Virus record (IMG/VR): IMGVR_UViG_3300045884_000127
Location: 1 to 30,432 of that record
Source of the DNA: a virus
DNA: 30,432 bases
Reading direction: 5' to 3' (one strand)
Of this stretch, positions 1,595-30,432 are shown in pieces. Both the position numbers and the translations under genes were made by a program. The notes under the pieces are model-generated. The model saw only the letters and a program-made list of their open reading frames with translations, ran no database searches and was not told the origin of the DNA. Each line of letters starts with the position of its first letter. The first letter of the stretch is position 1.

Positions 1595-1609
1595 TCAACT
1601 AGAGGTTGA
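1595..1609. promoter_or_regulatory. Small palindrome overlapping the late promoter -35 (unit A)
   Basis: TCAAC-TAGAG-GTTGA is a perfect 5+5 inverted repeat whose right arm overlaps the -35 hexamer. It is preserved in unit B (about 16986-17000). It is a candidate operator for a late-gene regulator; the arms are short, so this is only suggestive. Confidence 0.35.
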
Positions 1610-1634: not shown

Positions 1635-1641
1635 CCGTCCC

Positions 1642-4280: not shown

Positions 4281-4289
4281 GGAGGGCCA

Positions 4290-5664: not shown

Positions 5665-5668
5665 TCAT

Positions 5669-6088: not shown

Positions 6089-6089
6089 T

Positions 6090-10423: not shown

Positions 10424-10437
10424 AGGGAGGCATCCAA

Positions 10438-10650: not shown

Positions 10651-10679
10651 CAGTTTTCGCGATCTTGAGCGGTACTCTT

Positions 10680-10698
10680 ACACCGTATGGAACGGTGT
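10680..10698 (+). promoter_or_regulatory. Start-codon hairpin of the zinc-ribbon gene (unit A)
   Basis: ACACCGT (10680-10686) and ACGGTGT (10692-10698) are perfect 7-base arms around a 5-base loop ATGGA that holds the start codon. No Shine-Dalgarno sequence precedes it. The same hairpin and flanks occur in unit B. This may be a translational switch, an operator, or part of a leaderless start. Confidence 0.5.
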
Positions 10699-10845
10699 CG
10701 CTGGTGCCGGTCCGACGATCTCGACCAGGTCGAATACATCGAGGTCGACCTGTTCGGCACTCAAATCCGGGTGATCATCACCTACTGCAATACCTGCGGG
10801 AACGCAGAGACTGTCTCCTCGAAGGCGGTCCCAGCTTCAGCCTGA
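10687..10845 (+). CDS. Zinc-ribbon miniprotein, unit A
   Basis: This 52-residue protein has CRWC (Cys4, Cys7) and CNTC (Cys34, Cys37), two CxxC knuckles around a beta-rich core (VEYIEVDLFG, RVIITY), a standard zinc-ribbon layout. Unit B encodes the same protein at 25102 with nearly identical bases through the core. It lies just before the holin-like gene. Zinc ribbons of this size often bind DNA, RNA or proteins; the exact role is unknown. The start codon sits in a hairpin loop. Confidence 0.8.
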   Translation: MERCRWCRSDDLDQVEYIEVDLFGTQIRVIITYCNTCGNAETVSSKAVPASA

Positions 10846-10849
10846 GGGC

Positions 10850-11011
10850 ATGACTCCTCTCGAGACGATGATCGCAGTAGGGCTCGGCGGTTTCGGCTTG
10901 GGTGTGGGCATCGTCCTCGCCGCTTTCATCGCCCGGACTCTCCGCCGTTACATGAGCGACGAGGAGATGAAACCCTACGACCGGAAACGGAACGGGAATG
11001 GCGTCAAGTAG
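10850..11011 (+). CDS. Holin-like small membrane protein, unit A
   Basis: This 53-residue protein (MTPLETMIAVG start) has one Gly-rich hydrophobic helix at about residues 7-29 followed by RTLRR and a charged tail (DEEMKPYDRKRNGNG). A short N-terminus, single membrane span and charged C-terminus are typical of one-span holins. It precedes the endolysin, whose ATG (10998) lies inside this gene in another frame, suggesting coupled translation. Unit B's homologue is at 25262. Holin function is inferred from topology and position. Confidence 0.75.
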   Translation: MTPLETMIAVGLGGFGLGVGIVLAAFIARTLRRYMSDEEMKPYDRKRNGNGVK

Positions 11012-11648
11012 CCAGGTCCGCGCCTGGTGGGCCGACTACGAATGCAACCCGAACCTGTACACCAAGGTGTCGTTCCCCGGTGAAGGACGATCCTGGAATC
11101 TGTCAGTGGCCCGGGAGTCGGCACCGATCTGGTCGGCCGTCTCTCAGATCATGACCTCCGAGCCCTACCTGTTCAGAGAGTCAGCCGGCGGCACCTACAA
11201 CTGCCGACCCCCCTCACTCCACGCCTATGCCCTGGCCCTCGACTTGAACCCGTCGCAGAATCCGATGCGGAACCCGCCCACCTATGACTATCCGGACACA
11301 TTCATCATCCGGATGGAGGGGATCCGGGCCAACGGCCATCAGGCTCTCACCTGGGGAGGCCGCTGGCCGGCATCCAACCCGCCGGACACCATGCACTGGC
11401 AGGTCAACGTCCCACCCTGGGACTGTGACTACATCGAATGGGATACAGGAGGAGGACAGATGGGGAACTGGACCAGACCCGGCGACCCGGTCGACGACCT
11501 GGCCGACGCCCGCCGGGTCAACGAATATCAGGGATGGGACTTCTGGCGGCAGTCAGACTTCGACTACGACGAGAACGATCCGAAACAGCTCGACGAACGG
11601 TTCAAAGTCATCAGCTCACGTCTCATCGACTGGATGATGCGGCACTGA
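10998..11648 (+). CDS. M15-family endolysin (D-Ala-D-Ala / L,D-type peptidase), unit A
   Basis: This cell-wall peptidase would release progeny at lysis. The 216-residue protein has the M15 zinc motifs: SLHAYALALDLN (His75, Asp82; SxHxxxxAxD) and TMHWQ (His133). An N-terminal region (WWADYECNP, WNLSVARESAPIW) precedes the core, and a Tyr/Asp-rich C-terminal part (GNWTRPGDPVDDL onward) may be a wall-binding or dimer segment. It overlaps the holin-like gene by 14 bases. The gene is tail to tail with the lipoprotein gene, whose stop begins at the next base. The C-terminal part diverges from unit B's copy. Confidence 0.9.
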   Translation: MASSSQVRAWWADYECNPNLYTKVSFPGEGRSWNLSVARESAPIWSAVSQIMTSEPYLFRESAGGTYNCRPPSLHAYALALDLNPSQNPMRNPPTYDYPDTFIIRMEGIRANGHQALTWGGRWPASNPPDTMHWQVNVPPWDCDYIEWDTGGGQMGNWTRPGDPVDDLADARRVNEYQGWDFWRQSDFDYDENDPKQLDERFKVISSRLIDWMMRH

Positions 11649-12107
11649 TCATTCGCAGCCGAGCGACAGTCCATGGTCGATGGCAGCCTGCCCGTAGGCG
11701 AGCTGCCGCCAGTAGAGATCCTGGGAGTCTGAACCGTCTGTCGAATCGATCCAAAAGTTGGCTTCGGCGACGATGGTGGGACAGTCGGTCATCGCTTCGA
11801 TGAGAGCGACAGGCTCGGGCAGTTCTTCTTCGAGATTCCACGAGTAGTCGCCTTCGTCGTCCCGGTCGAGAAGCTCATCGTTGAGCCAGGTTTCGGTCGG
11901 ATAGCCATCGGGCAGATCACCGCGGAGGGTGACCTGATCGTCTTCGACCATGATCGACCATTCCAACTGGTCGACGGTCGGGGCTGTAGATGTGTCAGTG
12001 GTTGCGGTTGATCCGCCGCATGCTCCAATGGCGACAGCGCAGGCCAGTAGAACATATCGGATAGTGGTTTTGCTCAAGAGAGGCTTATCGGCCCAGAATC
12101 TAGGCAC
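11649..12107 (-). CDS. Secreted lipoprotein, candidate superinfection-exclusion factor, unit A
   Basis: The N-terminal part has a lipoprotein signal: basic residues, a hydrophobic run and the lipobox AIGAC, with lipidated Cys followed by GGSTATT. The mature domain is about 120 residues and acidic (DLPDGYPTETWLNDELLDRD, WRQLAYGQAAIDHGLSLGCE), with one further Cys pair candidate. The start may be GTG 12107 or TTG 12077; neither has a clear ribosome-binding site. It is transcribed from the lysogeny side against the lytic genes. Prophage lipoproteins in this position often block superinfection; that role is inferred. The mature domain is conserved in unit B but the signal region is not. Confidence 0.75.
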   Translation of the reverse strand: MPRFWADKPLLSKTTIRYVLLACAVAIGACGGSTATTDTSTAPTVDQLEWSIMVEDDQVTLRGDLPDGYPTETWLNDELLDRDDEGDYSWNLEEELPEPVALIEAMTDCPTIVAEANFWIDSTDGSDSQDLYWRQLAYGQAAIDHGLSLGCE

Positions 12108-12108
12108 C
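12092..12108. repeat. 17-bp direct repeat, left copy, flanking unit A integration module
   Basis: CCCAGAATCTAGGCACC here matches CCAAGTATCTAGGCATC at 13433-13449 in 14 of 17 positions, same orientation. A shorter CTAGGCA also occurs near 13226. The two copies bracket the structured region, the integrase and its control region. They may be integrase or regulator binding sites, or scars of module exchange. Confidence 0.4.
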
Positions 12109-12137
12109 TTGACTGCTTGCTTGTATTATCGGGAGGA

Positions 12138-12216
12138 GGTGCGGGCCCTGGCGTAACTCTTACCGGGAGGCAGACCCGGTTCGCCGGGGATGTCTTCCGT
12201 TCGCCGGACCCGCACC
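12138..12216. other. Cloverleaf-like GC-rich fold, unit A
   Basis: GGTGCGGG (12138-12145) pairs perfectly with CCCGCACC (12209-12216), enclosing three smaller hairpins: CCTGG/CCGGG, CCCGG-TTCG-CCGGG (12175-12188, a UUCG tetraloop) and TCCG/CGGA (12196-12208), the last stacked directly on the outer stem. The size (79 nt) and layout recall a tRNA-like fold, but no tRNA T-loop or anticodon arm is recognisable. It lies between integrase and lipoprotein genes, where unit B keeps its attP. It could be a small RNA or part of the attachment site. Confidence 0.4.
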
Positions 12217-12280
12217 ACTCGTTGCGACACCCTTAGACCGGAAAGCACTCATCGTTAGGTGGGGGCGCCCCCCGCGGTCC

Positions 12281-12347
12281 GGTCCAGTTGCACCTAGACC
12301 GAACGTTGGAGGTCGCCCCCCTGTCGTCCTACCGGTGCAACTGGCCC
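12281..12347. repeat. Long inverted repeat downstream of the unit A integrase
   Basis: CCAGTTGCACC (12284-12294) and GGTGCAACTGG (12334-12344) are perfect 11-base arms, extendable to 14 with one mismatch, around a 39-base loop. Together with the palindrome GGGGGCGCCCCC just upstream (about 12261-12272) and the cloverleaf-like fold, it fills the 290-base stretch between lipoprotein and integrase. No gene is supported here. It is a candidate attP arm region or a terminator-like structure. Confidence 0.45.
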
Positions 12348-12397
12348 GCAGTGCAATGCGGTCGATAGTCATGTCGGAAATTCTGGCAGATGTGGTC

Positions 12398-13212
12398 TCA
12401 TTCGTTGACCGCCGGCCAGACCTGGGCGTAAGACAGGTTCTGTGAGGCGAGGATCATCCGGTCTCGGGTGACCCGGGTGTATCCGGCGGTCGTTTCAGGT
12501 GAGGCATGTCGGGCGAGTTCTTGGGCGACCCGGAGGTCTCCCGACTTGTCGTTCACGTCGGAGATGAACGTGTGTCGCAGCTTGTGGGGGGTCAGGTCGG
12601 GTATGCCGGCTGCGGTTCCGATCTGGGCGACCCACAGGGCGACAGTGGCCGGGTTTACATGGGCGGTCCGGTTCCCGGGGAACAGGTACCGGTATGCGGT
12701 TTGCCGGCCCTGGATTTCTTCCCGGACGATGTGATGGACCGGGATCTCTTCGACGATGTTGCCTTTCCCGTATACCTCATACCAGTCGAGCTGGGGGGTG
12801 AAGCGGGTCCAGTCGACGGCGGCGATCTCGAGGCGGCGTAGTCCCATGAGCAGTCCGAAGAGGACGGCGGTGCCTTCGGGGTAGACGCCCCTTGAGGTTT
12901 GGACGAGGGCGGCGGCCTGTTCGTCTTCGACGCCGTTCCATTTCATCCGTCGCCGTTTCGGAGCTCGGATGGCGCCGGTCGGGTCGTCTTCGACGCCTCG
13001 CCACCGGTACCAGTGGCCGAGGGCGACTGCATGTTGACGGCGTGAGGCGGACGTGTCGGGCAGCGTTTCGCTGTAGGCGCGCATGGCGAGCGGGTCCGTC
13101 TCCAGCGTTCTACAGCATGTCCGTAGATCCTGATTGTCCGGTCGGAAAGTCCTCGCCCGACCAGATAGTTAACGAACCCAATCGTTGTGTCTTCAGATCC
13201 CAGCATTCCCAT
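12398..13212 (-). pseudogene. Tyrosine integrase split by a frameshift, unit A
   Basis: The N-terminal core-binding part (ATG 13212 or 13206: GFVNYLVGRGLSDRTIRIYG, then HAVERWRR) and the catalytic part lie in different frames. The second frame picks up at DPLAMRAYSETLPD near 13085 and continues to 12398. A shift of -1 near 13095-13105 joins them into one normal protein of about 270 residues. Catalytic residues are present: GLRRLE (Arg), LTPHKLRHT (His, Arg), LARHASPETTAGY (His, Tyr). No clear slippery sequence is visible, so this is a disabling mutation, a sequence error, or a gene read as two pieces. The integrase would mediate site-specific recombination with the host chromosome. Confidence 0.75.
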
Positions 13213-13362
13213 GGTGCCCCTCTTACTAGGCACTGGAATGATGTCCGGGTCCGACCCTACCCCGCCTGTGGGAAAGTTATGCACGAGTCGCGAAAACTTT
13301 CCCCGCATTCTGCTTGCACAACCCCCCTGCCGGGTGGGTAGGGTGAATGGTTAACAGTTTGC

Positions 13363-13456
13363 GTGACGGTGTTTTGAGCTACCGCGGATTAATTCCAGTG
13401 GACGTTACAGCGCCCACAGTAGCTCAAGCCTGCCAAGTATCTAGGCATCCCGTCAC
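13363..13456. promoter_or_regulatory. Divergent control region with nested inverted repeats, unit A
   Basis: Between the leftward integrase and the rightward winged-helix gene, TTGAGCTAC (13374-13382) pairs with GTAGCTCAA (13419-13427), and outside them GTGACGG (13363-13369) with CCGTCAC (13450-13456). A copy of the 17-bp repeat lies at 13433-13449. The 264-base gap 13213-13476 holds no supported gene. It must contain the integrase and early promoters; a unique -35/-10 pair could not be fixed. Confidence 0.45.
13433..13449. repeat. 17-bp direct repeat, right copy (unit A)
   Basis: This is the partner of the copy at 12092-12108 (14 of 17 bases identical, same orientation). It sits just upstream of the winged-helix gene's ribosome-binding site, so it could also act as an operator. 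Confidence 0.4.
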
Positions 13457-13476
13457 CTGAGTTTTTGGAGGTACGC

Positions 13477-13740
13477 ATGGACGTATCCGCAACGCCGGGT
13501 GTCCTCGAGATCCCCTATGCCCTCGCGTTCAAGGCGGAACAGCACTCGGATCTGGCCGTCTACCTGGCCATCGCCCATTTCATCAGAGGGGGGATCAACC
13601 GGCCCTCCCACGGGTCGATAGCCGAGCTTGCCCAGATCAGCCGGGAAACGGTCAGCGCCTCGCTCAAGCGTCTCGTCGCCGGCGGGTACATCACCGTCGA
13701 CAAGGAAGCCGCCCCCCACGCCTACTCGCTCGCAGCATGA
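13477..13740 (+). CDS. Winged-helix DNA-binding protein, early regulator candidate, unit A
   Basis: This 87-residue protein has a winged helix-turn-helix: LAVYLAIAHFIRGG, then SHGSIAELAQISRETVSASL (helix-turn-helix), then KRLVAGGYITVDKE (wing). It has a strong GGAGGT site six bases before ATG 13477. The pattern resembles replication-initiator N-terminal domains and MarR/GntR-like regulators. It is the first gene of the rightward early operon and divergent from the integrase, so a lysis-lysogeny or replication control role is likely. Unit B has an unrelated DNA-binding protein in this place. Confidence 0.75.
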   Translation: MDVSATPGVLEIPYALAFKAEQHSDLAVYLAIAHFIRGGINRPSHGSIAELAQISRETVSASLKRLVAGGYITVDKEAAPHAYSLAA

Positions 13741-13757
13741 GCATCGAGATCCCATCA

Positions 13758-13780
13758 CTTCCCCGCACCATCGGGGGAAG
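13758..13780 (+). terminator. Hairpin after the winged-helix gene (unit A)
   Basis: CTTCCCC (13758-13764) and GGGGAAG (13774-13780) form a perfect 7-base stem with a 9-base loop just after the stop codon. There is no T-run behind it, so it may be an attenuator or the first element of the structured leader rather than a full terminator. Confidence 0.4.
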
Positions 13781-13806
13781 GAGAACCTGAAGGCCGAGTA
13801 GTGATC

Positions 13807-20988: not shown

Positions 20989-21468
20989 GTGGCATCTCAG
21001 ATCACAGTCAAAGGGCTCGCCGACTTCCAACGGGACCTCCGGGGGGTAGACCCCCGGCTCGCCAAGACCCTTCAGGTCGCCCACAAGAAGGTCTCGTCGA
21101 GGGCAGTGGAAGGTATCCGGCCGGCGGTAGGACGCTTACCCTCGCCGGGAAGCTCGAGGACGACAGGGGGGATCACCCCGCGGGCCGGCCAGAAATACGC
21201 TCGGGTCGCCTTCTCCGGAGCGACCCGTTCCCAACCGCTCCACGCTTCGATTCTCGGCGCCAACTGGCATCCCGTCTTCGGCCGGTTCATCCAGGCCGAC
21301 AAGATGAAACGACGACTCTGGCAACCCCATCTCGGCGCCACCTGGTCCTACGACCAGCTGTACGGGGCCGGACCTGTCTTCACCCGGATCGCCGACACCT
21401 TCGCATTGGACGAATACGCCGACGCCATCATGGACGCTTTTGCTGAAGCTTTCCCGGAGCAGACCTGA
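20989..21468 (+). CDS. HK97 gp10-like minor head-tail/tail protein, unit B
   Basis: This 159-residue homologue of the unit A protein starts at GTG 20989, one base after the tail-tube stop. FQRDLRGVDPRLAK is unchanged. The upstream codons of the longer frame differ completely from A, which supports GTG as the start. TGATG overlap with the tape-measure gene. Confidence 0.65.
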   Translation: MASQITVKGLADFQRDLRGVDPRLAKTLQVAHKKVSSRAVEGIRPAVGRLPSPGSSRTTGGITPRAGQKYARVAFSGATRSQPLHASILGANWHPVFGRFIQADKMKRRLWQPHLGATWSYDQLYGAGPVFTRIADTFALDEYADAIMDAFAEAFPEQT

Positions 21469-22727
21469 TGCCCGACCGTAAACGCACCATCGAAGTCGAC
21501 TTCCTCGTCGACGATAAAGAGAAGAGGAAGCTGAAGGACATCGGTGATGAAGCCGACACGACATCAGGGAAGATCAGCGGTCTCGGAGGGGTCCTCGGCA
21601 CCGTTTTCACCGTGGCCGCCGCCCAGCAGATCGGCCAGTTCGCCTTCGAAGCCGCCCAGATCGGCGCCAAAGCAGAAACCGCCGCCCAATCCGCCGAGAA
21701 AGTCCTCGGCCCAGCCCTCGACGACCTGCGGGGCCGACTCGACGACGTCCGGGGGACGATGGGTTTCAACCGACTCGAAATGGACGAGACCATCGCCAAA
21801 TACGGTCTCCTCACCGATTCGATAGGCCTCACCGACGATGCCCAAGCCGACTTCATCGGATGGCTGATCGAAACCGGCGGTGAGCTTGCCGCCTTCCGAG
21901 GAGATCTAAGCCTCTCCGACGAGGCGGTCGACGCTCTCGGTGGTGCCCTCCGCGGGGAGTACGACAGCCTGGAACAGTTCGGCGTGAAAGTCTCCGACGC
22001 CGCCATCGAAGAGGAGAAGCTGAGGCTCAAGGCCGAACCGGCCAACGCCGCCCTCAACGACCAGCAGCTCGAACTGCTCGCCCTGCAAACCCTGATCAAC
22101 GAGAAGGCAGCCCCTGCTCTCGGATCATTGGCTGACGCTCAGGACACTCTCGCCGGGAAAACCAATGATGCGACCTCCCGTTTCGAAGACCTGAAAATCG
22201 AATTGGGCCAGCAGATCCTTCCCGTCATCAACGATGTGCTCGGCTTCCTCCTCGAGGCCTTCGAATCCTGGGATCGGCTAGCCAACCCGGACACCTTCCA
22301 AAACACACAACTGGCGCAATGGATACGCGATTTCGATAGTGCTCTAGGCCCAATCGATGATTTCATCGGCGACCTGATCGACTCATGGTTGAGTTTCGAA
22401 CAGACCGTCGAAGATGTCGCCGCGACAGTCGTCGGGAAAAACCAGGAATTCGGTAAAGGTGTCGGCGGCAAACCCAAAATTCCCACCTCTGCGGGTCGTC
22501 AACATGGCGGTCCTGTCCACAGTGGCAATCCGTATCTGGTCGGCGAACGCGGCCCGGAAATGTTCGTCCCCTCTTCCAACGGGAGTATCAGTCCCGGTGG
22601 TATGACCGCCAATATCACGATCAACGCCGGCATGGGCTCCGATCCGAACGCCATCAGCAAAGCTGTCGTCCAGGCCTTACAGCGGTATGAACGGGCCAAT
22701 GGGGCGATCCCGGTGAGGACCCGGTAA
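21468..22727 (+). CDS. Short tape-measure protein, unit B
   Basis: This 419-residue tape measure is six residues shorter than in A. The N-terminal 30 residues, the central TMGFNR....ETIAK block, the SLSDEAVDALG....EYDSLEQFGVKVSDAAIEE region and the C-terminal HGGPVHSGNPYLVGERGPE motif are shared, while about residues 40-80 and 265-340 have been replaced. Tail lengths of the two phages should therefore be nearly the same. TGATG upstream and TAATG downstream overlaps. Confidence 0.88.
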   Translation: MPDRKRTIEVDFLVDDKEKRKLKDIGDEADTTSGKISGLGGVLGTVFTVAAAQQIGQFAFEAAQIGAKAETAAQSAEKVLGPALDDLRGRLDDVRGTMGFNRLEMDETIAKYGLLTDSIGLTDDAQADFIGWLIETGGELAAFRGDLSLSDEAVDALGGALRGEYDSLEQFGVKVSDAAIEEEKLRLKAEPANAALNDQQLELLALQTLINEKAAPALGSLADAQDTLAGKTNDATSRFEDLKIELGQQILPVINDVLGFLLEAFESWDRLANPDTFQNTQLAQWIRDFDSALGPIDDFIGDLIDSWLSFEQTVEDVAATVVGKNQEFGKGVGGKPKIPTSAGRQHGGPVHSGNPYLVGERGPEMFVPSSNGSISPGGMTANITINAGMGSDPNAISKAVVQALQRYERANGAIPVRTR

Positions 22728-22948
22728 TGCCCGGTTCGATCTGGCTCGACGCCCAAATCGGCGATCCGGTCTACCAGGGCTTGACTCTGGGCGGGGTCAT
22801 CATCAACGCCGGCGCCTGGAGTTTCCTGAAAGCGGACCATCCCGGCCTGCGGGCTCTCCGTATCAACAATGGAGTGCCCATCCTGGTCGGTGACCTGCCC
22901 GACTCCCAGTCCATTCCCGCCTCGGCCACGGTCGACCTCTACTACTGA
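22727..22948 (+). CDS. Small post-tape-measure tail protein, unit B
   Basis: This 73-residue protein matches the first 60 and last few residues of the 219-residue protein in unit A (GDPVYQGLTLGG, KADHPGLRALR, VDLYY end). It lacks the inserted LGYAQVT-type domain. This appears to be the minimal form, showing that the A version gained a domain. It lies between tape measure and minor tail genes and overlaps both; probably a small tail-tip component. Confidence 0.7.
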   Translation: MPGSIWLDAQIGDPVYQGLTLGGVIINAGAWSFLKADHPGLRALRINNGVPILVGDLPDSQSIPASATVDLYY

Positions 22949-24243
22949 TGACTGTCACCCTGCCTCCACCGTCTCAGATTCTCCACTGGCTGGGCGGTCC
23001 CATCGACGTCCGGGTCGAAATCGACACCGGCTTGACTCCGGAGACGACCGCCCTCTGGGACTCCGCCCTCTGGGATGTGGGCGTGTGGGGGACTGAAGAC
23101 CCGTCATGGGCGGATGCCACCCAATGGGTGATGAGGGTCGACATCAACGCCGGTGCGGCCCGTTGGGGTGAAAGGTTCGAATCAGCATCCTGTTCGATCC
23201 TCGTCGACAACACCGAAGGCATCTTCACCCCCGACAGTGATGTCCCCTACTGGAGCCTTCCGTTCCGGCCGGGCCGGCGGATCCGGGTCGTCGCCATTCC
23301 CGACGAGACCACCGGAGAGAAGTGGGCGCTGTTCACCGGGCAGATCGACGCTATCAACGACAGTCACGACGCCGGCGGCTACGACCTGAGCACCCAGGTC
23401 CTCTGCTCGGATTACATGGCCGTCTTCGCCGCCTACAACCCGCCGATGATGGAAATCCCCACCGGTGTCCAAACCACCACCGAACGGGTAGAAGCAGCAT
23501 TGGACCGGATGGACTGGCCGGCCACCGACCGGGATCTCCAAGCCGGTGAGCACACCATGCAAACCTCGTTCCTGGCTCAGACCACCCTCGAGGAATGCGG
23601 CCGGGCCGCCGACGCCGAAGGCGGCGCCTTCTACGCCGACCGTAACGGATGGGCTGTCTTCAAAGCCCGGGACTGGCTGACCACCGATGAGCGCAGCATC
23701 AACATTCAGGCCTACCTGGGATATGAGGAGATACCAGCGGGGGCGGTAGGAGCTCACATCATCGGCCTCGAAATCAGCCATGAAGCAGCCCGGGTCGTCA
23801 ACGATGTGGCCTTCGCCCGGGTCGGCTCCCATCTCCAACACTATGCCAATGCGGGCAGTCAGGCCCTCTTCCGGAAACGGTCCTACCAGCGGACCGACCT
23901 GGAAAACAATCATGACGATGAGGTCCGGTTCCTCGCCAAACGGTATCTACGAGCCTTCAAAGACGACCGGGCGCGGGTCGACTCGGTGACCATCGACGCC
24001 ATCGACGACCCCGACCACGACCGGATCCTCTACGACACCCGGTTCGGTGACCTCTGGTCGGTCCTCGTCGACACTCCCTACGGCTGGTCCTATGAGAAAC
24101 AGGTCCATGTCATGGGTCTCGAACAGCACATCACCGCTGATGATTGGGTCGCCACCTTCCGACTCGACGACGCTCAAACGTTCATCATCCTCGAACCCGC
24201 CTACTGGGACACTCAGAACTGGGATGAAGGCTTATGGCAATAG
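22948..24243 (+). CDS. Minor tail protein (tail tip/hub), unit B
   Basis: This 431-residue protein is homologous to unit A's (ILHWLGGPIDVRVEIDTGL, RWGERFESAS, PFRPGRRIRVVAIPDE, HTMQTSFLAQT.LEEC, RSYQRTDLENN). A Trp-Asp repeat lies near residues 37-47 as in A. A second one ends the protein (YWDTQNWDEGLWQ), whereas A has its second copy internally at 270-280. It probably forms the tail hub. A clear GGAGGT site for the next gene overlaps its stop. Confidence 0.75.
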   Translation: MTVTLPPPSQILHWLGGPIDVRVEIDTGLTPETTALWDSALWDVGVWGTEDPSWADATQWVMRVDINAGAARWGERFESASCSILVDNTEGIFTPDSDVPYWSLPFRPGRRIRVVAIPDETTGEKWALFTGQIDAINDSHDAGGYDLSTQVLCSDYMAVFAAYNPPMMEIPTGVQTTTERVEAALDRMDWPATDRDLQAGEHTMQTSFLAQTTLEECGRAADAEGGAFYADRNGWAVFKARDWLTTDERSINIQAYLGYEEIPAGAVGAHIIGLEISHEAARVVNDVAFARVGSHLQHYANAGSQALFRKRSYQRTDLENNHDDEVRFLAKRYLRAFKDDRARVDSVTIDAIDDPDHDRILYDTRFGDLWSVLVDTPYGWSYEKQVHVMGLEQHITADDWVATFRLDDAQTFIILEPAYWDTQNWDEGLWQ

Positions 24244-24253
24244 GAGGTAAGTG

Positions 24254-24841
24254 ATGGGATGGGAATCAGAAATAGCGGATGTGGTCACCGGGGAGCCGGT
24301 CGAATCCGAATGGGGCAATCAGATCCGGGATCAGATCGTCCATGTCATCCCCACCGCCGCCGGCCTTCCCTCCGACGCTGCTGATGGGGCGGTCTGCTAC
24401 GCCCAGGACACCGACAAACTGTATCTACGCCGGGTCGGAGCCTGGATCGTCCAAGGGGGCGGCGCTGGAGTCCTCGGCTACGCCCAAGTCACAACAGCAC
24501 AAACGGTGGGTACTACACCTACCGTTTTGACCGGCCTAACCCTGACCGTCACGGTCCCAGCATCCCGTCGGATCAAAGTGACCGGCAAGATGATTGTGAG
24601 TCCCAACGCGGGCGCAGTAATAGCACCGTCGATCTACGCCGACGCCGTCGAAGTGCAAAAGTCGACGACGGTCCTCCAAACCGGCGAATTCATGGGAGTC
24701 CACCTCGAAGTCGTGTTGACGCCGACCGCGGGCAATCACACTTACGATCTGAGACTGTCGACCAATAGCGGCCAAGTATCGAACCAGGCCGCTGCCACCT
24801 TCCCGTCCTTCATCCTCGTCGAAGACCTCGGACCCGCATAG
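24254..24841 (+). CDS. Tail-tip protein with mobile beta-rich domain, unit B
   Basis: ATG 24254 is chosen for its GGAGGT site (24243-24248). Residues 1-25 (ESEIADVVTGE....EWGNQIRD) are the anchor shared with unit A's 9821 protein. An attachment-type segment (GAVCYAQDTDKLYLRRVGAW) follows. Residues 74-191 (LGYAQVTTAQT to FILVEDL) are homologous to the domain inserted in A's 7846 protein. So the two phages carry the same exposed domain on different carriers. A receptor-binding role is inferred; 195 residues. Confidence 0.65.
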   Translation: MGWESEIADVVTGEPVESEWGNQIRDQIVHVIPTAAGLPSDAADGAVCYAQDTDKLYLRRVGAWIVQGGGAGVLGYAQVTTAQTVGTTPTVLTGLTLTVTVPASRRIKVTGKMIVSPNAGAVIAPSIYADAVEVQKSTTVLQTGEFMGVHLEVVLTPTAGNHTYDLRLSTNSGQVSNQAAATFPSFILVEDLGPA

Positions 24842-24855
24842 AAAGGAGCCCTACG

Positions 24856-25065
24856 TTGGCTGAGAAGAAGAGCACGAAACCCCGTCAGAAGGCACAGCTT
24901 TCCCTCGAGGAGACCGCCGACTATCTGGGGATCACACCCGACGAGCTGATGGCCTCCCGCGGTCGGGGTCTCCCACCCGGCAAGGACGGCTACAAGAAGG
25001 ACGGGATCCTCGTCTGGGACCGCAAGAGCCTGCCGGCGAAGGATGAGGCCGTCGAAGAACAGTGA
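24856..25065 (+). CDS. Small basic helix-turn-helix-like protein, unit B
   Basis: This 69-residue homologue of the unit A protein starts at TTG 24856 with AAAGGAG upstream. SLEETADYLGITPDELMASR is the helix-turn-helix-like part, and the C-terminal VWDRKSLPAKDEAVEEQ is unchanged from A. The strong conservation of this small protein across units that swap their tip genes suggests an important late function, but none is recognised. Confidence 0.65.
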   Translation: MAEKKSTKPRQKAQLSLEETADYLGITPDELMASRGRGLPPGKDGYKKDGILVWDRKSLPAKDEAVEEQ

Positions 25066-25094
25066 CGAATTTCGCGTTCTTGAACGGTACTCTT

Positions 25095-25113
25095 ACACCG
25101 TATGGAACGGTGT
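25095..25113 (+). promoter_or_regulatory. Start-codon hairpin of the zinc-ribbon gene (unit B)
   Basis: ACACCGT (25095-25101), loop ATGGA with the start codon, ACGGTGT (25107-25113). It is identical to unit A, while the bases 20-30 upstream differ at several places. Confidence 0.5.
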
Positions 25114-25260
25114 CGCTGGTGCCGGTCCGACGATCTCGACCAGGTCGAATACATCGAGGTCGACCTCTTCGGCACTCAACTCCGGGTGATCATCACCTAC
25201 TGCAACACCTGCGGGAACGCAGAAACCGTCGGGTCGAAAGCGTTGCCCGCTCCCGCCTGA
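25102..25260 (+). CDS. Zinc-ribbon miniprotein, unit B
   Basis: This 52-residue protein with CRWC and CNTC knuckles at the same spacing as in A; only the last dozen residues vary (ETVGSKALPAPA). The nucleotide sequence is almost unchanged over the first 110 bases, including third codon positions, so a constraint beyond the protein may act here, for example RNA structure around the start. The holin-like gene begins two bases after the stop. Confidence 0.8.
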   Translation: MERCRWCRSDDLDQVEYIEVDLFGTQLRVIITYCNTCGNAETVGSKALPAPA

Positions 25261-25261
25261 G

Positions 25262-25417
25262 ATGACTCCGCTCGAGACGATGATCGCCATCGGACTCGCC
25301 GGATTCGGACTGGGAATGGGTCTCGTCCTCGCCGCTTTCATTGCCCGCACCCTCCGCCGTTACATGGGCGAAGAAGAGATGAAACCGTTCGACCGGAAAC
25401 GGGACGATGGCGAGTAG
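25262..25417 (+). CDS. Holin-like small membrane protein, unit B
   Basis: This 51-residue protein (MTPLETMIAIGLAGFG start) has one Gly-rich membrane helix (about 7-29), RTLRR and a charged tail (EEEMKPFDRKRDDGE). It is homologous to the A protein and overlaps the endolysin start at 25407 by 11 bases. It is a one-span holin candidate by topology and by its place before the endolysin. Confidence 0.75.
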   Translation: MTPLETMIAIGLAGFGLGMGLVLAAFIARTLRRYMGEEEMKPFDRKRDDGE

Positions 25418-26084
25418 CAGCCAGGTCCGCGCCTGGTGGGCCGACTACGAATGCAACCCGGGCCTCCACACCAAGGTCAGCTTCCCCGGAGAAGGCCGCA
25501 CCTGGAATCTGTCCGTCGCCCGAGAGTCAGCACCCATCTGGAACGCGGTCGCCCAGATCATGGACTCGGAGCCCTACCTGTTCCGAGAATCCGCCGGCGG
25601 CACCTACAACTGCCGCCCGCCCAGCCTCCACGCCTACGCCCTCGCCCTCGACCTCAACCCATCAGCCAATCCGATGCGCAACCCGCCCATCTACGACTAC
25701 CCGGAAAGCTTCATCACCCGGATGGAAGGGATCAGAGCCAACGGCCATCAAGCTCTCCAATGGGGCGGCCGCTGGCCCCCATCCAACCCGCCCGACACCA
25801 TGCACTGGCAGATCAACGTCCCACCCTGGGACTGTGACCACATTCAATGGGATGCAGGAAACGGAGGCACCATGACCTGGAGCAAAGTAGGAGATCCGAT
25901 CAACAATCTGACCGACGCCGACGCGGTCCTCGCCTACCAGGGCACCTTCGCCCCCGGCTCGAAGGAAGCCTCCTACAACCCCGGCTCAGATTCGGAGCTC
26001 AACGACCGGATCTGGGTCGTCCTCGGACGGATCACCGACTGGTCAATGCAGATCGACCAGCGACTCCGCAAAGGCGGCCTCTGA
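25407..26084 (+). CDS. M15-family endolysin, unit B
   Basis: This 225-residue peptidase has the zinc motif SLHAYALALDLN and the later TMHWQ, as in unit A. The catalytic part is closely similar. The C-terminal 60 residues (from about NGGTMTWSKVGDP onward) differ and are longer, ending with a helical region (LNDRIWVVLGRITDWSMQ). Such C-terminal variation could reflect different wall binding. It is tail to tail with the lipoprotein gene, one base apart. Confidence 0.9.
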   Translation: MASSSQVRAWWADYECNPGLHTKVSFPGEGRTWNLSVARESAPIWNAVAQIMDSEPYLFRESAGGTYNCRPPSLHAYALALDLNPSANPMRNPPIYDYPESFITRMEGIRANGHQALQWGGRWPPSNPPDTMHWQINVPPWDCDHIQWDAGNGGTMTWSKVGDPINNLTDADAVLAYQGTFAPGSKEASYNPGSDSELNDRIWVVLGRITDWSMQIDQRLRKGGL

Positions 26085-26085
26085 C

Positions 26086-26481
26086 CTATTCGCAGCCGAG
26101 CGACAGGCCATGATCGATAGCCGCCTGGCCGTAGGCGAGCTGCCGCCAGTAGAGGTCCTCGGGATCATCATCAGTGGTCGAGTCGATCCAGAAGTTCGCT
26201 TCGGCGACGATGGTGGCACAGTCGGTCATCACTTCGATGAGAGCGACCGGCTCAGGTAGTTCGGCTTCGAGATTCCAGTCGAAGTCACCCTCCTCGTCGC
26301 GGTCGAGAAGCTCGTCGTTCAACCAGGTTTCAGTCGGATACCCGTCGGGCAGGTCACCGCGCATGACCACCTGATCGCCGTCGACGTCGATGGACCATTC
26401 GACCTGATCGACGGTCGGAACAGTGGAAGTGGTTGCGGTTGATCCGCCGCAGGCTGAGACGGTGATGAGGACCGCCAGCAG
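26086..26481 (-). CDS. Lipoprotein without a canonical start codon, unit B
   Basis: The mature domain from CGGSTATT to the LSLGCE end matches unit A's lipoprotein closely. The signal part (RRALLAVLITVSAC, lipobox VSAC) differs. No ATG, GTG or TTG occurs in frame near the signal; the first usable codons are CTG 26481 or CTG 26478, or a start inside the end of the excisionase-like gene. So it either uses a rare start, depends on coupling to the upstream gene, or lost its start when the integration module was exchanged. Superinfection exclusion is a plausible role, inferred from type and place. Confidence 0.6.
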   Translation of the reverse strand: MLAVLITVSACGGSTATTSTVPTVDQVEWSIDVDGDQVVMRGDLPDGYPTETWLNDELLDRDEEGDFDWNLEAELPEPVALIEVMTDCATIVAEANFWIDSTTDDDPEDLYWRQLAYGQAAIDHGLSLGCE

Positions 26482-26488
26482 GGCTCGT

Positions 26489-26812
26489 CTAGCTGTCGTT
26501 GCCGTTCTCCTGGGAGTCCTGCCAGGTCGTGGTCGCCCAGTACTCCTTGATCTCGTCGCGGAGGACGTCGGGCGCGTAGAACCAGGTCGCTCCGAACTGT
26601 CGGGCCTGGTTGCCGGGGAAGTGGTCGTGGTCGCGTTGCCGTTTGAGAGTGGAGACGGACATGCTGAGCAGGTGGACGGCGTCGCGTTCTTTGATGAGGA
26701 GACGCCGGTCCAGGGCGACAGAATCTGCCCCACTTCTGCCCCACTTTTCGTGATCTGCCCCACTTTTGCCCACTTCTGGCGAGAGGTCATGAGTGGTCTC
26801 TGGTGGTGGCAT
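26489..26812 (-). CDS. Excisionase-like DNA-binding protein, unit B
   Basis: The 107-residue frame has a C-terminal winged helix-turn-helix of the excisionase/AlpA class: LLIKERDAVHLLSMSVSTLK (helix-turn-helix), GNQARQFGATWFYAPDVLRD (wing), EIKEYW. The N-terminal 35 residues are encoded by a tandem repeat (TGCCCCACTT units) and may be untranslated, since GTG about 26773 is also possible. An excisionase directs the integrase toward prophage excision. It lies just beyond attP from the integrase, and its stop is eight bases before the lipoprotein's possible CTG start. Confidence 0.7.
   Translation of the reverse strand: MPPPETTHDLSPEVGKSGADHEKWGRSGADSVALDRRLLIKERDAVHLLSMSVSTLKRQRDHDHFPGNQARQFGATWFYAPDVLRDEIKEYWATTTWQDSQENGNDS
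26726..26775. repeat. Left arm-type repeats of attP (unit B)
   Basis: Four direct copies of TGCCCCACTT or one-base variants: 26726-26735, 26737-26746, 26756-26765 and 26767-26775. Two more lie on the other side of the core (26973-26993). GGCGAGAGGTCA adjoins at 26778-26789. This resembles integrase arm sites around a core. Confidence 0.6.
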
Positions 26813-26862
26813 GGCGTGTCGGAATGTGTAACTACTGTCGGCATAAATGGCAACTTCACCTG

Positions 26863-26906
26863 GGTGGGCGATACTGGACTTGAACCAGTGGCCTCTCGCG
26901 TGTGAG
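26863..26906 (-). other. attP core matching the 3' part of tRNA-Val(CAC), unit B
   Basis: On the minus strand the bases read as a tRNA from the anticodon loop (CTCACAC, anticodon CAC at 26904-26902) through the 3' anticodon stem GCGAG, variable loop, T arm ACTGG-TTCAAGT-CCAGT, acceptor strand ATCGCCC and ACC. The 5' half of a tRNA is absent. Tyrosine integrases commonly use such tRNA 3' segments as attP. It lies nine bases beyond the integrase stop. Its presence in unsplit form shows that unit B is not integrated in this sequence. Confidence 0.85.
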
Positions 26907-26914
26907 TAGAGAGG

Positions 26915-28177
26915 TCATACATCGTTTTTCTCCTTTTCTGATATGGCGTTTCTGTTGTCGAGAGGAATGATCTGCCCCACTTTTGCCCCAAGTAGATGAG
27001 ACGGCGAGAGGTCAAGGCGTCCGACCAGCTGATCCTGGGCTGAGGCGACCCGGTCGGAGATGGCGTCGGTCTGATGGGAGTAGATCCGGGATGTGATCGC
27101 CACCGAAGCGTGGCCGGCGTGCTTGGAGACGGTCTCGAGGTCGATGCCAACCTCCCGCAGGGCGGACACGTTGGTATGCCTCAGCCAATGGAATTTGGCT
27201 TCGGGCCGGCCGATGGCGGCGACGGCCGGCTTCCAGAACCGATTGCGGAAGTTGCCCGGTCGGAGGACACCACCACCGGGAGCGGGGAACACCCATCCGT
27301 CCCGGGAGTGCCGGCCCATATGGTCGATGAGGATCTGGGCCAGCTCGTCGCCGAGGCGGATGACCCGTCCCGGGTTTCCGCCCTTGAGCCACTCTTCGAC
27401 GTGGACCCGGCCTCCGACTTCAATCACCTTCCGAGAGAAGCTGAGGTCCCGGGTGCGCGGGTTGAAATCGGTGATGGCCAGACCGGCCCATTCCCCGATC
27501 CGGGCGCCCGCTCCATACGAGCCGAGCGGGATGAGAGCCCGGTAGCGGGGATCGAAGATGTGCCACAGCTCGGTCAGCTCGCCGGGGTTGAACACCGGCT
27601 GAGCGCCGTGATAGCGGTGGGCGCGGGTGACGGTGATGTCGACCAGGTCGACCCGGGCCGGGCTCTCCGAGATCATGCCAAGGCGGATCGCCTCGGTGAG
27701 CACCTGGTCGAGACATCTCCGATACTTGTGGACCATCCCCTCGGAGAGGGCTTCGCCGTTGCGGGCGTTCTTATGCGGCTGGCCTTCGAGGACCTTGTCG
27801 ACCCAGTCCTGAACATCGAGCGGCTGGATCTGATCGACCTTCCAGGAACCCCAATCGGGAATGATCCGCGCCTCGAGGTAAGCCCGGTCCGCGGCCAGGG
27901 TCTTGCGGGCCAGGTTCTTACGGACCCGCCGTTTGTACCAGAGCCCGGCCACTTCGGCGACGGTCTGGGCGGGCCGTCTTCGACCTTTTCCGGCTAGTCG
28001 ACGTTCGTGCTCGGACCAGAGATGAGCGTTCGCTTCTTCGATGGTGTCGTGAGTGAGATCGACCCGGCCCACCGGCGCCGCATAGTTGATCCGTGTGATG
28101 GGACGTCCATTCTTGGTGTCGTCCCGAATGATGACCTTGCCGAACGGCGAGAGGTCAAGAGGGGCTTGCTTGCCCAT
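26915..28177 (-). CDS. Tyrosine integrase, unit B
   Basis: This 420-residue recombinase integrates the phage at tRNA-Val. An N-terminal arm-binding-type domain (GKVIIRDDTKNGRPITR, about 12-60) is followed by a core-binding domain (TVAEVAGLWYKRR to DVQDWVDKVLEG) and a catalytic domain with Arg226 (GARIGEW), His330 and Arg333 (FHWLRHT), His356 (HAGHAS) and nucleophile Tyr366 (RIYSHQ). It is complete, unlike the unit A integrase, and unrelated in detail. Its 3' end (KVGQIIPL) is encoded by the right-hand attP arm repeats. Confidence 0.93.
   Translation of the reverse strand: MGKQAPLDLSPFGKVIIRDDTKNGRPITRINYAAPVGRVDLTHDTIEEANAHLWSEHERRLAGKGRRRPAQTVAEVAGLWYKRRVRKNLARKTLAADRAYLEARIIPDWGSWKVDQIQPLDVQDWVDKVLEGQPHKNARNGEALSEGMVHKYRRCLDQVLTEAIRLGMISESPARVDLVDITVTRAHRYHGAQPVFNPGELTELWHIFDPRYRALIPLGSYGAGARIGEWAGLAITDFNPRTRDLSFSRKVIEVGGRVHVEEWLKGGNPGRVIRLGDELAQILIDHMGRHSRDGWVFPAPGGGVLRPGNFRNRFWKPAVAAIGRPEAKFHWLRHTNVSALREVGIDLETVSKHAGHASVAITSRIYSHQTDAISDRVASAQDQLVGRLDLSPSHLLGAKVGQIIPLDNRNAISEKEKNDV
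26973..26993. repeat. Right arm-type repeats of attP (unit B)
   Basis: TGCCCCACTT (26973-26982) and the partial copy TGCCCCAAGT (26984-26993) repeat the left arm units in the same orientation. They lie inside the integrase 3' coding end. GGCGAGAGGTCA follows at 27003-27014 and again at 28146-28157. Confidence 0.55.
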
Positions 28178-28232
28178 CTTCCCAGCCTTTCTTTTCGCGA
28201 CCTGTAGTGGTGAGTGGTGCTAAGTCCCAGAT

Positions 28233-28335
28233 AGTAGTGGCACGCCTGAGATTGCGTCTGGCTTAATCTGATCGCATCTGATAGTTCTAGACTCTTGAAG
28301 GGTATATCCCCAGATTCATCCACAGAGCCACTACT
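28233..28335. promoter_or_regulatory. Divergent control region, unit B
   Basis: Between integrase and early gene, AGTAGTGGC (28233-28241) pairs with GCCACTACT (28327-28335). Inside are two direct copies, GATTGCGTCTG (28250-28260) and GATCGCATCTG (28270-28280), spaced 20 bases, two helical turns. TAGTGG also recurs at 28205-28210. These are candidate operator sites for the DNA-binding protein at 28349 or the excisionase. Promoter hexamers could not be fixed. Confidence 0.45.
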
Positions 28336-28348
28336 GAAGGAGGACCCT

Positions 28349-28546
28349 GTGACGATGATCGAACCCCGGCTGGACACCGACCAAGTCCTGACCGTATCCG
28401 AGGTAGCCGCCCGCCTCAAGGTCGTCGAAGAAACAGTCCTCCGACTGCTACGCGCCGGCGACCTGCGCGGATTCAAGGTTGGAGCCGCCTGGCGCGTCTA
28501 CGAATCGGACCTCGAGGCGTTCATAGCTGCCAATGCCAACTGGTGA
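28349..28546 (+). CDS. MerR/excisionase-type DNA-binding protein, unit B
   Basis: This 65-residue protein has one winged helix-turn-helix: VLTVSEVAARLKVVEETVLR (helix-turn-helix), LLRAGDLRGFKVGAAWRV (wing), YESDLEAFIAA. GTG 28349 is chosen for its GAAGGAGG site five bases upstream; ATG 28355 is possible. This class includes excisionases and phage regulators. It opens the rightward early operon, opposite the integrase, in the place held by an unrelated winged-helix protein in unit A. It may set lysis or lysogeny. Confidence 0.8.
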   Translation: MTMIEPRLDTDQVLTVSEVAARLKVVEETVLRLLRAGDLRGFKVGAAWRVYESDLEAFIAANANW

Positions 28547-28561
28547 CTTGAACGGCCGGTG

Positions 28562-28597
28562 GACATCCGGTGTAGGAGGGAAGCTGACCCGGATGTC
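28562..28597 (+). other. Hairpin after the MerR-type gene (unit B)
   Basis: GACATCCGG (28562-28570) and CCGGATGTC (28589-28597) are perfect 9-base arms with an 18-base loop, shortly after the stop codon. It is the first of two successive hairpins leading into the structured RNA. Confidence 0.5.
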
Positions 28598-28608
28598 GAA
28601 AGAGATAT

Positions 28609-28637
28609 GGAAGGGCCGGCAGTTGCTCGGCCCTTCC
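28609..28637 (+). terminator. Terminator-like hairpin before the structured RNA (unit B)
   Basis: GGAAGGGCCG (28609-28618) and CGGCCCTTCC (28628-28637) form a perfect 10-base stem with a 9-base loop, followed by TGTCTT. It may attenuate early transcription or process the leader. Confidence 0.55.
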
Positions 28638-28690
28638 TGTCTTCCGCACCACTCACAGGCTGGGAAGGAGGACAAGTCTACAGACCACTG

Positions 28691-28962
28691 ATGACACGCT
28701 CGAACATTGCGGATCCGCGGACCTCTGAACGGTCGGAAGCGTTGAATCTCACGTCCGCCGATACCGCCCACCAGCGCACGATCATCATCGGGCTTAGGCA
28801 CTGGTGTGAGCACCACGGTGCTCCATTGGGCAGCCCGCGCCCCCGGTTCTTCACAGGATCAGCGGCAACTCACTCCCAGGGGCGCGGGAGGCCCAGCACA
28901 CGGAAACACCGGGAAGCCCCGGCTTTGCGGGGCGAACCCGGCGCTCTTAGACAGTGAGGAGA
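28691..28962 (+). ncRNA. Conserved structured RNA / leader of the early operon, unit B
   Basis: This is the homologue of 13807-14075. Stems kept: GACC/GGTC around TCTGAAC; GAGCAC-CACG-GTGCTC (28808-28823); TGGGC (28827-28831) with GCCCA (28891-28895), enclosing CCCGCGCCCC (28834-28843) with GGGGCGCGGG (28879-28888); CCGGG (28909-28913) with CCCGG (28937-28941), enclosing GCCCCG/CGGGGC. The apical loop of the long stem differs completely from A. The 419-base stretch 28547-28965 holds no gene I can support, only this element and the two hairpins above. Confidence 0.65.
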
Positions 28963-28965
28963 CGC

Positions 28966-29337
28966 ATGAGACTCGACGAGCTCCCCGAATCCTGGACACG
29001 GAACCCCTACCAGCATGAGTACCCGGAGCATCCCGTCTTCGACGATCCTGGCACCGTCCGGGTCATCGACATACCTGACGTGGTCCGCTACACCGACGAC
29101 TTGCCGACCCCACCCGTTGAAGACGATGGTGCCAGGTTGAAAGCCAAACCGTGGGATCAGGAGAAGGTCGATGATCTGAGCAAGGCTTTGGACGCCGCGC
29201 TCGAAATGCGGGCCGCAGCCGAAGCTTTCGTCGGATGGTTCACCAATGCCCGGCCCCTCCTGGCCGACGACTATGCGGATCTCATCGATGAGGCTGACGC
29301 CCGTATCGCCCGGGTCAGACGTCTAGCCGAGCAATGA
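28966..29337 (+). CDS. Early protein of unknown function, unit B
   Basis: This 123-residue acidic protein (MRLDELPESWTRNPYQHEYP) is homologous to the unit A protein at 14079, most similar in the first 45 residues (HPVFDDPGTVRVIDIPDVV) and in the last 30. GAGGAG lies before ATG 28966. The central loop is variable. It follows the structured RNA and overlaps the next gene by ATGA. Confidence 0.75.
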   Translation: MRLDELPESWTRNPYQHEYPEHPVFDDPGTVRVIDIPDVVRYTDDLPTPPVEDDGARLKAKPWDQEKVDDLSKALDAALEMRAAAEAFVGWFTNARPLLADDYADLIDEADARIARVRRLAEQ

Positions 29338-29579
29338 GCATCGACCTCGGCGTCCAGATGCACGGCCTGGATCCTCGAGACCGACTCCATCTGGACCTCA
29401 ACGTGACCGGCTCCGGGGAGATCCAAGTGCATACGCCGAAAGGAGCCATGCACTTCGACATCGACGTCGAACGACTCCGACATCTTCTCCTGATGCTCGA
29501 CTCCATGCTCGAGGACTACGACAAGATCACCCTGGGAGTAGACCGCCTCGACCAGGCCGAGGACACGGTGCCGCTGTGA
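29334..29579 (+). CDS. Small early protein of unknown function, unit B
   Basis: This 81-residue protein (MSIDLGVQMHGLDPRDRL) matches the unit A protein, with conserved LHLDLNVTGSGEIQVHTP, MHFDIDVE and the helix LRHLLLMLDSMLEDYD. Two strands, a strand pair and a helix suggest a small alpha/beta fold. It is translationally coupled on both sides, between the unknown early protein and the HNH gene. Confidence 0.7.
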   Translation: MSIDLGVQMHGLDPRDRLHLDLNVTGSGEIQVHTPKGAMHFDIDVERLRHLLLMLDSMLEDYDKITLGVDRLDQAEDTVPL

Positions 29580-30019
29580 GCTCGGCTCTGCGTCGTGGTG
29601 GGAGTACCCGGAAGTGGCGGCGGCTGCGTGATCTGATCCTGATCCGGGACCGTCACATCTGCGGCTACTGCGGTGCGCCCGCCACGGTGGTGGATCACAT
29701 CATCTCGAGGGCTGAGTGCAAAAGCCGTGGCATCTATGCGGACCACCCGGTGAACCTGATCGCGGCCTGTTCCGACTGCAACACTTCGAAAGGGGCCTCA
29801 ATCGGAGATGCCCGAAAAAAGAGGGCCGGATTGGAGGGCCCTTTTTTCAATGGCGGCAGCGCTGGACACCCCCACGCCGTGTCCTCTCTCTCCCCTGAGG
29901 CCTCCAGCCCCCAAAACGGGCACTATCTGGTAATACCTGGGAGCAGCGGTGTCGAGCGGGACCGGGCCGGCCTCGAGCTCAGTGATCCGGGCCCATTGGG
30001 TCGTGGCGTGACCCGGTAG
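29576..30019 (+). CDS. HNH endonuclease next to the packaging site, unit B
   Basis: This 147-residue protein starts at GTG 29576. HNH residues are as in A: CGYC, VDHI, HPVNLIAAC, CSDCNTSKG. The extra C-terminal 70 residues have the same length as in A and end LGRGVTR. The intrinsic terminator at 29815-29847 lies inside the frame. By established knowledge of cos phages, HNH proteins beside terminases take part in cutting concatemers. Confidence 0.88.
   Translation: MSSALRRGGSTRKWRRLRDLILIRDRHICGYCGAPATVVDHIISRAECKSRGIYADHPVNLIAACSDCNTSKGASIGDARKKRAGLEGPFFNGGSAGHPHAVSSLSPEASSPQNGHYLVIPGSSGVERDRAGLELSDPGPLGRGVTR
29815..29847 (+). terminator. Intrinsic terminator inside the HNH gene (unit B)
   Basis: Six A (29815-29820), stem GGGCC/GGCCC with loop, six T (29842-29847). 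The loop-side base changes from unit A keep a GC stem between the A and T runs. Confidence 0.75.
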
Positions 30020-30068
30020 GGCGGCCTCAATCGGCTGTGAGACACCGCATCCGCCGCCCTCCGGGTCA
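30009..30068. other. Candidate packaging (cos/pac) region, unit B
   Basis: TGACCCGG (30009-30016) pairs with CCGGGTCA (30061-30068); inside, GGGCGGC (30019-30025) pairs with GCCGCCC (30053-30059). The outer arms are those of unit A, the inner stem is new. The repeat again straddles the HNH stop codon. The gap 30020-30125 holds no supported gene. Confidence 0.45.
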
Positions 30069-30125
30069 TGCCACCACGAAAACCGCCCGTACAGGCCAAC
30101 CTCATCGGTCTCCGCAGGTCACAGC

Positions 30126-30432
30126 ATGAGCAAAGTCCGAAGGCCGGCTCCGTCGACTCTGGAACGGGCGGTGATCGCTTCGGCGAAGGATGCGGACTGG
30201 ATCGTCAAAAGCGATGACGCCTCCTACTGGCTGCTCCGCGACGTGAGCCTGGCCCTGGATGGGGTGAGAAGACAGGCCACCTTGGATGGGATGCTTAGCA
30301 TTTCACCACGGGATCTGGCCGAGCTCGCCGGTAGAGCTCTGCAACTCCTCAGAGAGCTCGGCCTGACCCCCGCTGCACGTCATCGTATGGGGTTGTGGGA
30401 TGAGCAAGTCGACGATGCCTTCGCCAACGTTC
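30126..30432 (+). CDS. Small terminase subunit, unit B (cut by window end)
   Basis: ATG 30126 opens MSKVRRPAPSTLERAV, with the helical DASYWLLRDVSLALDGVRRQ region and LGLTPAARHRMGL near the edge. The N-terminal 35 residues differ from the 15229 gene (for example SAKDADWIVKSDDAS against SVRDAEWLKKTDDAS). The last 123 bases are identical to 15410-15532. The remaining codons are presumably those at 1-133 if the sequence is circular. Confidence 0.85.
   Translation, partial: MSKVRRPAPSTLERAVIASAKDADWIVKSDDASYWLLRDVSLALDGVRRQATLDGMLSISPRDLAELAGRALQLLRELGLTPAARHRMGLWDEQVDDAFANV
30310..30432. repeat. Terminal copy of the shared exact repeat
   Basis: Bases 30310-30432 equal 15410-15532, and 30341-30432 equal 1-92. 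The window therefore begins and ends in the same sequence, which indicates a circular or terminally redundant molecule or assembly path. Confidence 0.9.

Follow-up and report, generated by a model that had tools for sequence, protein, structure and literature searches.

The locus described here lies in a 30,432-nt virus record, IMGVR_UViG_3300045884_000127 (the window), in which a tyrosine integrase gene, the 3′ half of a tRNA-Val(CAC) gene, and a gene encoding a small excisionase-like HTH protein follow one another in the same direction on the minus strand, with a lipobox protein gene behind them (Table 1). The tRNA half, the core of an attP, begins 8 nt past the integrase stop codon and ends 50 nt ahead of the HTH ORF, and from 26906 to 26863 comprises, in order, the anticodon loop CTCACAC, the 3′ strand of the anticodon stem, the variable loop, the T-arm, and the acceptor strand. 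Position, strand, and gene order are as the original prediction, a reading of the bare sequence, had placed them. Neither ARAGORN (0 genes) nor Rfam reports a complete tRNA in the window, in keeping with the presence of a half.

Table 1. Coordinates of the genes, sites, and segments of the window
Feature	Coordinates	Strand	Remarks
Phage A	1–15440		Aligns with phage B over most of its length
Phage B	15441–30340		~14.9 kb; carries the tRNA-Val attP
Junction segment with the same sequence in both phages	15410–15567		158 nt; exact extension, 31 + 127 nt (blastn)
Lipobox protein (VSAC)	26086–26499	−	Stop 1 nt from convergent endolysin stop (26084); overlaps HTH stop
Small HTH protein, excisionase-like	26489–26812	−	107 aa from first ATG; assigned by homologues
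Three P′-side candidate arm-type repeats	26721–26771	−	Direct-repeat family; within 5′ part of HTH ORF
Spacer, tRNA half to HTH ORF	26813–26862	−	50 nt; no terminator hairpin
attP core, tRNA-Val(CAC) 3′ half	26863–26906	−	44 nt; anticodon loop to acceptor end
CTCACAC, anticodon loop, likely overlap region	26900–26906	−	Between inverted half-sites GACCTCTCTA and GGCCTCTCGC
Tyrosine integrase	26915–28177	−	420 aa; Pfam Phage_integrase 5.6e-14, Phage_int_SAM_3 1.5e-7; PHROG integrase 3.1e-42
P-side candidate arm-type repeat (AAAAGTGGGGCAGATCA type)	26968–26988	−	Direct-repeat family; within integrase 3′ end; conserved in L005
HTH_17/TIGR01764 "excisionase family" gene	28349–28546	+	Divergent from integrase; Pfam HTH_17 1.4e-13; NCBIfam excise 3.8e-12, above cut-off

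The window has to be read with caution as a composite, since it consists of two related phage genomes of ~15 kb joined end to end; the finding concerns the second of these, phage B, only. Phages A and B are 68 to 94% identical over most of their length, and the final 92 bases of the window repeat its first. Contig 3300045978_000302 (15,027 nt) is phage B on its own (100% match), and its end repeats its first 127 bases, leaving 14,900 nt (15,027 − 127), the length of phage B; 11,880 bases, most of phage A, recur at 99.98% in contig 3300045910_000147. The 127-nt overlap resembles an assembler k-mer, and the joining of the two phages is therefore most likely an assembly artefact, a true dimer being less likely. 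The phage A integrase is split over two frames (12398–13308, minus strand) into a SAM-like N-terminal ORF (12943–13308) and a catalytic part (12398–13084), the latter identical in contig L126. The gap between this integrase and the phage A lipoprotein gene harbors, as read by eye, an inverted repeat, CCAGTTGCACC ... GGTGCAACTGG (12260–12350), that might serve as a different type of attachment site.

Among the matches listed, the core agrees in 43 of 44 bases with the tRNA-Val(CAC) genes of three contigs, one of them from an Acidimicrobiia bin (L122), the sole differing base lying in the variable loop, and when we joined the core by script to the 5′ half of the L122 gene, ARAGORN called a complete tRNA-Val(CAC). 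These two results bear out the claim that attP overlaps tRNA-Val(CAC). The class (395 genomes) and order (138 genomes) searched in this work are those of the Acidimicrobiia genome that contains L122. Genome contigs yielded no exact copy of the core, the best host tRNAs among the matches listed being one base off; these nearest tRNAs come from a looser pattern scan that returned at least 117 stretches, and seven of the 395 class genomes have a tRNA that departs from the core pattern (C or T allowed at the differing base) by at most one mismatch. In the half carried by the related phage L005, the T-stem is altered on both sides (ACTGG/CCAGT to GCAGG/CCTGC) in compensatory fashion. By likeness to known tRNA-targeting integrases, we presume that crossover occurs in the anticodon loop, which makes CTCACAC the likely overlap region for strand exchange.

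The order integrase, tRNA half, and HTH gene is common to four distinct phages, namely, phage B, L005, L203 (3300045953_000089), and L204 (3300045927_000101). These fall into two integrase groups that are ~30% identical, with the integrase of L005 sharing 97% identity with that of phage B and those of L203 and L204 sharing 32 and 28%, respectively. L203 and L204 harbor integrase, tRNA 3′ half, HTH gene, and endolysin in the order and on the strands of phage B, and their half is, judged by the anticodon, the end of a tRNA-Val(GAC); an exact host copy of it was not found among the loci compared, and the four tRNA-Val(GAC) genes set beside it are clearly different. Searches of viral contigs with the integrase, the HTH protein, and the lipoprotein returned two loci each, and an integrase profile returned five loci, corresponding to the four distinct phages and a second-sample copy of L204 (99.97%). 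A terminase search returned 28 viral loci, six of which were checked along with L126 and L005, with an integrase found in six of these eight. L163 and phage A carry other integrases and are without this attP; L163 also carries the small membrane protein that is found behind the HTH gene of L005.

Short repeats flank the core on both sides. The motif CTGCCCCACTT has four exact occurrences, all around attP, and with one mismatch allowed there are five hits in the window versus a chance mean of 0.39; the motif AAGTGGGGCAGA has one copy on the integrase side of the core and three toward the HTH gene. L005, L203, and L204 carry the arm motif at the corresponding position, and it overlaps the start of the HTH gene in all four phages. 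Such a placement to either side of the core is as would be expected of the arm-type sites of a heterobivalent integrase, for which the repeats are candidates. The sequence GACCTCTCGCC, considered as an additional core-type site in the arms, gave three hits, a number reached in 25 of 100 shuffles, and was dropped. On the far side of the integrase gene, the divergent HTH_17 gene has an 88% identical homologue in L005, and L203 and L204 also harbor an HTH_17 gene there. The divergent region itself (28178–28348) contains, as read by eye, repeated TAGTAGTGGC and GCCACTACT-like motifs that are possibly operators.

For the tRNA-proximal HTH ORF itself, Pfam, PHROG, and NCBIfam yield no match; it owes its excisionase label to its homologues in L203 and L204 (L211 and L213), which are 29 to 30% identical to it over the core domain and match PHROG phrog_66, "excisionase and transcriptional regulator" (E = 9e-5), with Pfam HTH_17 below the cut-off. 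The L005 homologue, also located behind attP, is 72% identical. Structure models of the HTH protein are too poor to use (pLDDT 49 and 55) and retrieved no match from the PDB. The tRNA-proximal protein is a candidate recombination directionality factor, while the divergent HTH_17 gene is the clearer and better supported member of the excisionase family; either may encode the directionality factor. The spacer between tRNA half and HTH ORF contains two blocks conserved with L005, GTTGCCATTT and GTTACACATTC, which are possibly a promoter or Xis sites. No sigma-70-like promoter upstream of the HTH gene passed the scan in the window, L005, L203, or L204, and the arrangement TTGCCA-N17-TACACA, considered as such a promoter, was rejected for its poor second hexamer and was likewise not reported by the scan.

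What follows the tRNA half differs between the two integrase groups. A hairpin of 11 to 12 bp with a TTTT tail is found in L203 and L204, 3 to 4 nt behind the half (−20.7 and −21.4 kcal/mol, z of −6.3 and −5.6); the terminator pattern scan reported that of L204 and not that of L203, whose tail falls just outside the rule. No comparable hairpin is present behind the half in phage B (z of 0.5), and L005 has a 5-bp stem only (z of −0.9). The hairpin in L203 and L204 should stop transcription of the tRNA ahead of the HTH gene, which in these phages would then be unable to depend on read-through from either the integrase or the tRNA; in phage B and L005, which lack the hairpin, transcripts may run on into the HTH gene. 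The original prediction had pointed to a strong terminator between the tRNA and the excisionase gene of integrated relatives as evidence against itself. What we find is a strong hairpin in the attP, rather than in integrated copies, of two of the four phages, and none in phage B. A hairpin of at least eight Watson–Crick pairs within 60 nt follows 12 of the 22 integrase-adjacent convergent Acidimicrobiia tRNAs described below, and by the same criterion none of 10 other tRNA-Val(CAC) genes, which were presumed to have no integrase nearby. The terminator may simply be typical of the host tRNA. In the Acidimicrobiia integrase loci, a strong hairpin often stands between the tRNA and the convergent integrase (L129, L130, L132, L138, L142, L144, L146, L148–L150, L155, and L156), and many have the form GAAACCC(C/T)TGC...GCAAGGGTTTC.

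The host of phage B is likely to be an Acidimicrobiia bacterium because of the 43 of 44 matching tRNA bases and the presence of relatives of its terminase in that class. These relatives, at 42 and 39% identity, are found in two of the 395 class genomes; the best identity among 1819 matching phage records is 31%. The original prediction had called for a search for prophages with this integrase next to tRNA-Val(CAC), and no integrated copy came to light in a search by integrase of eight chosen genomes, the 395 genomes of the class, and the 138 of the order, where relatives are at most 37% identical; the L204 integrase matched none of 137 order genomes at 1e-25. To place the geometry of phage B, we compiled 31 Acidimicrobiia loci with integrases ~30% identical to its own (the best 30 of 59 matching genomes, plus one). 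A convergent tRNA lies at the integrase 3′ end in 22 of these, the tRNA precedes the integrase in one, and no tRNA was called in eight, one of which (L152) has an opposite-strand T-arm motif at the contig end. None of the 31 shows an integrase followed by a co-directional tRNA fragment, so that the arrangement in phage B is unusual among the loci compared. Six of the 31 lie beside tRNA-Val(CAC), in convergent orientation (L129, L135, L139, L140, L147, and L157).

The lipobox protein stands apart from this conserved unit. Of the four phages with the integrase–attP–HTH order, phage B alone harbors it behind the HTH gene; the slot is filled by the small membrane protein in L005, and nothing precedes the endolysin in L203 and L204. 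In phage A, where no tRNA half was found, a 75% homologue adjoins an unrelated integrase and takes the corresponding position ahead of the endolysin, so that the lipoprotein tracks the endolysin end of the genome and not attP. The match between the two lipoproteins begins at the lipobox, from which we infer that the signal peptide in phage B may come from an exchanged cassette. Between 26700 and the lipobox Cys (26451), ATG, GTG, and TTG are all absent from the phage B frame, and the best candidate for a start codon is an ACG at 26499, 7 nt behind an AGGAG. With default thresholds, the protein has no match in Pfam or PHROG, and an exclusion role for it is without sequence support.

We consider it probable, on balance, that the locus is a conventional tRNA-Val(CAC) attP, with the HTH gene under its own control and the lipoprotein gene a mere neighbor. 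On this explanation, phage B would be a temperate actinophage of ~14.9 kb with a conventional heterobivalent tyrosine integrase, which would integrate into the anticodon loop of the host tRNA-Val(CAC) by way of core and arm sites that span about 26721 to 26988, the P′ arm overlapping the start of the excisionase-like HTH gene. Integration would restore the tRNA, place the HTH gene directly behind it, and leave the integrase gene at the far end; since the tRNA half is co-directional with the integrase, it is the HTH gene and not the integrase that would come to lie behind the restored tRNA. To this extent the geometry supports what had been predicted, namely, that integration parts the integrase from the downstream genes, with the HTH gene first behind the tRNA. 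After the tRNA and the HTH gene, the order implied continues with the lipoprotein in phage B, with the small membrane protein in L005, and with the convergent endolysin in both L203 and L204. Control of the HTH gene would most likely reside in the stretch that separates it from the tRNA, with integrase occupying the overlapping arms, the hairpin would insulate the gene from the tRNA in the relatives, and the lipoprotein gene would belong to the endolysin end of the genome, adjoining by chance. Against this explanation stand the negative promoter scan, the failure to find an integrated copy or an exact copy of the core in the genomes searched, and the missing hairpin in phage B, where the insulation does not hold.

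Other readings make transcription across attP decisive. The original prediction took the tRNA promoter of the lysogen to drive both the HTH gene and the gene for an exclusion lipoprotein, the two being silent before integration. The co-directional order, the 50-nt gap without a terminator, and the lipobox fit such a switch, and lysogeny-module lipoproteins can exclude superinfection, as described for Ltp of phage TP-J34 (PMC3952083). This switch is nevertheless not supported and very unlikely, given a lipoprotein that occurs in one of the four phages of this architecture and again in phage A with another integrase, that has no canonical start in phage B, and that is joined to an architecture with a terminator-like hairpin in two of four cases; silence before integration, which would call for a transcription gap between integrase and HTH gene, is, moreover, an assumption. 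For an integration-dependent switch, it is not enough that genes follow attP in a suitable order. Reduced to the excisionase-like gene, with the lipoprotein as passenger, the proposal would have read-through from the tRNA promoter link excision to growth rate. The hairpin is absent in both CAC-type phages, phage B and L005, and PMC2951348 quotes a suggestion by Swenson et al. that an element may be coupled to tRNA transcription; constant excisionase should, however, destabilize the lysogen unless Int or translation is limiting, and relatives of the same gene order are insulated, which together leave the reduced proposal unlikely. The switch might also work in the opposite sense, with integrase transcription on the phage circle crossing attP into the HTH gene, and integration cutting this link so that excisionase falls and the lysogen is stabilized. 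The two genes are indeed co-directional and separated by 102 nt (26915 to 26812), an interval that holds no terminator in phage B and L005, but the L203 and L204 hairpin between tRNA half and HTH gene would block this route too, and we regard it as unlikely. A further reading, in which the excisionase comes under the tRNA promoter upon integration and the gain or loss of the terminator serves as a tuning device, open in the CAC phages (phage B and L005) and closed in the GAC phages (L203 and L204), seems to us improbable as well. The four phages nonetheless form a natural series of two integrase groups and two tRNA-Val genes, some members having a terminator and some lacking one, in which one could test directly how transcription of the host tRNA affects the excisionase-like gene.

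In the open-license literature searched, we found no account of a restored tRNA with an excisionase gene behind it; four papers provide the closest parallels. The KplE1 study sorts 1273 cases into "InTr shapes" termed STI, SIT, OC, and OD, with 736 STI, 438 OC, and SIT and OD below 8% (PMC2951348). Phage B shares with these a tyrosine integrase that uses a tRNA, an integrase orientation to the tRNA that has regulatory consequences, and recombination-protein sites that overlap a gene start, and transcriptional coupling to the tRNA was already proposed there; the InTr shapes have the integrase beside the intact tRNA, whereas in phage B the integrase would lie beside the displaced fragment and the HTH gene beside the intact tRNA. 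Mycobacteriophages of the BPs type, with integration-dependent immunity, are likewise described (PMC9262239) as having an attP that overlaps a tRNA and an integration event that changes the gene arrangement. There, however, attP lies inside the repressor gene rather than between genes, repressor and integrase carry ssrA-like tags whereas the phage B integrase ends in EKEKNDV and is untagged, and neither arm-type sites nor a directionality factor are used, in contrast to the arm repeats of phage B. Ltp of TP-J34 is a lipoprotein of ~140 aa near the integrase gene and on its strand, features shared by the phage B lipoprotein, which differs in having no family match and in its placement behind attP and the HTH gene (PMC3952083). 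In tRNA-dependent lysogeny, attB also overlaps a host tRNA gene, but the system described there has ~10 bp of shared sequence and a whole phage tRNA (PMC10865867), where the 44 nt of phage B would restore the tRNA and a whole tRNA was not found.
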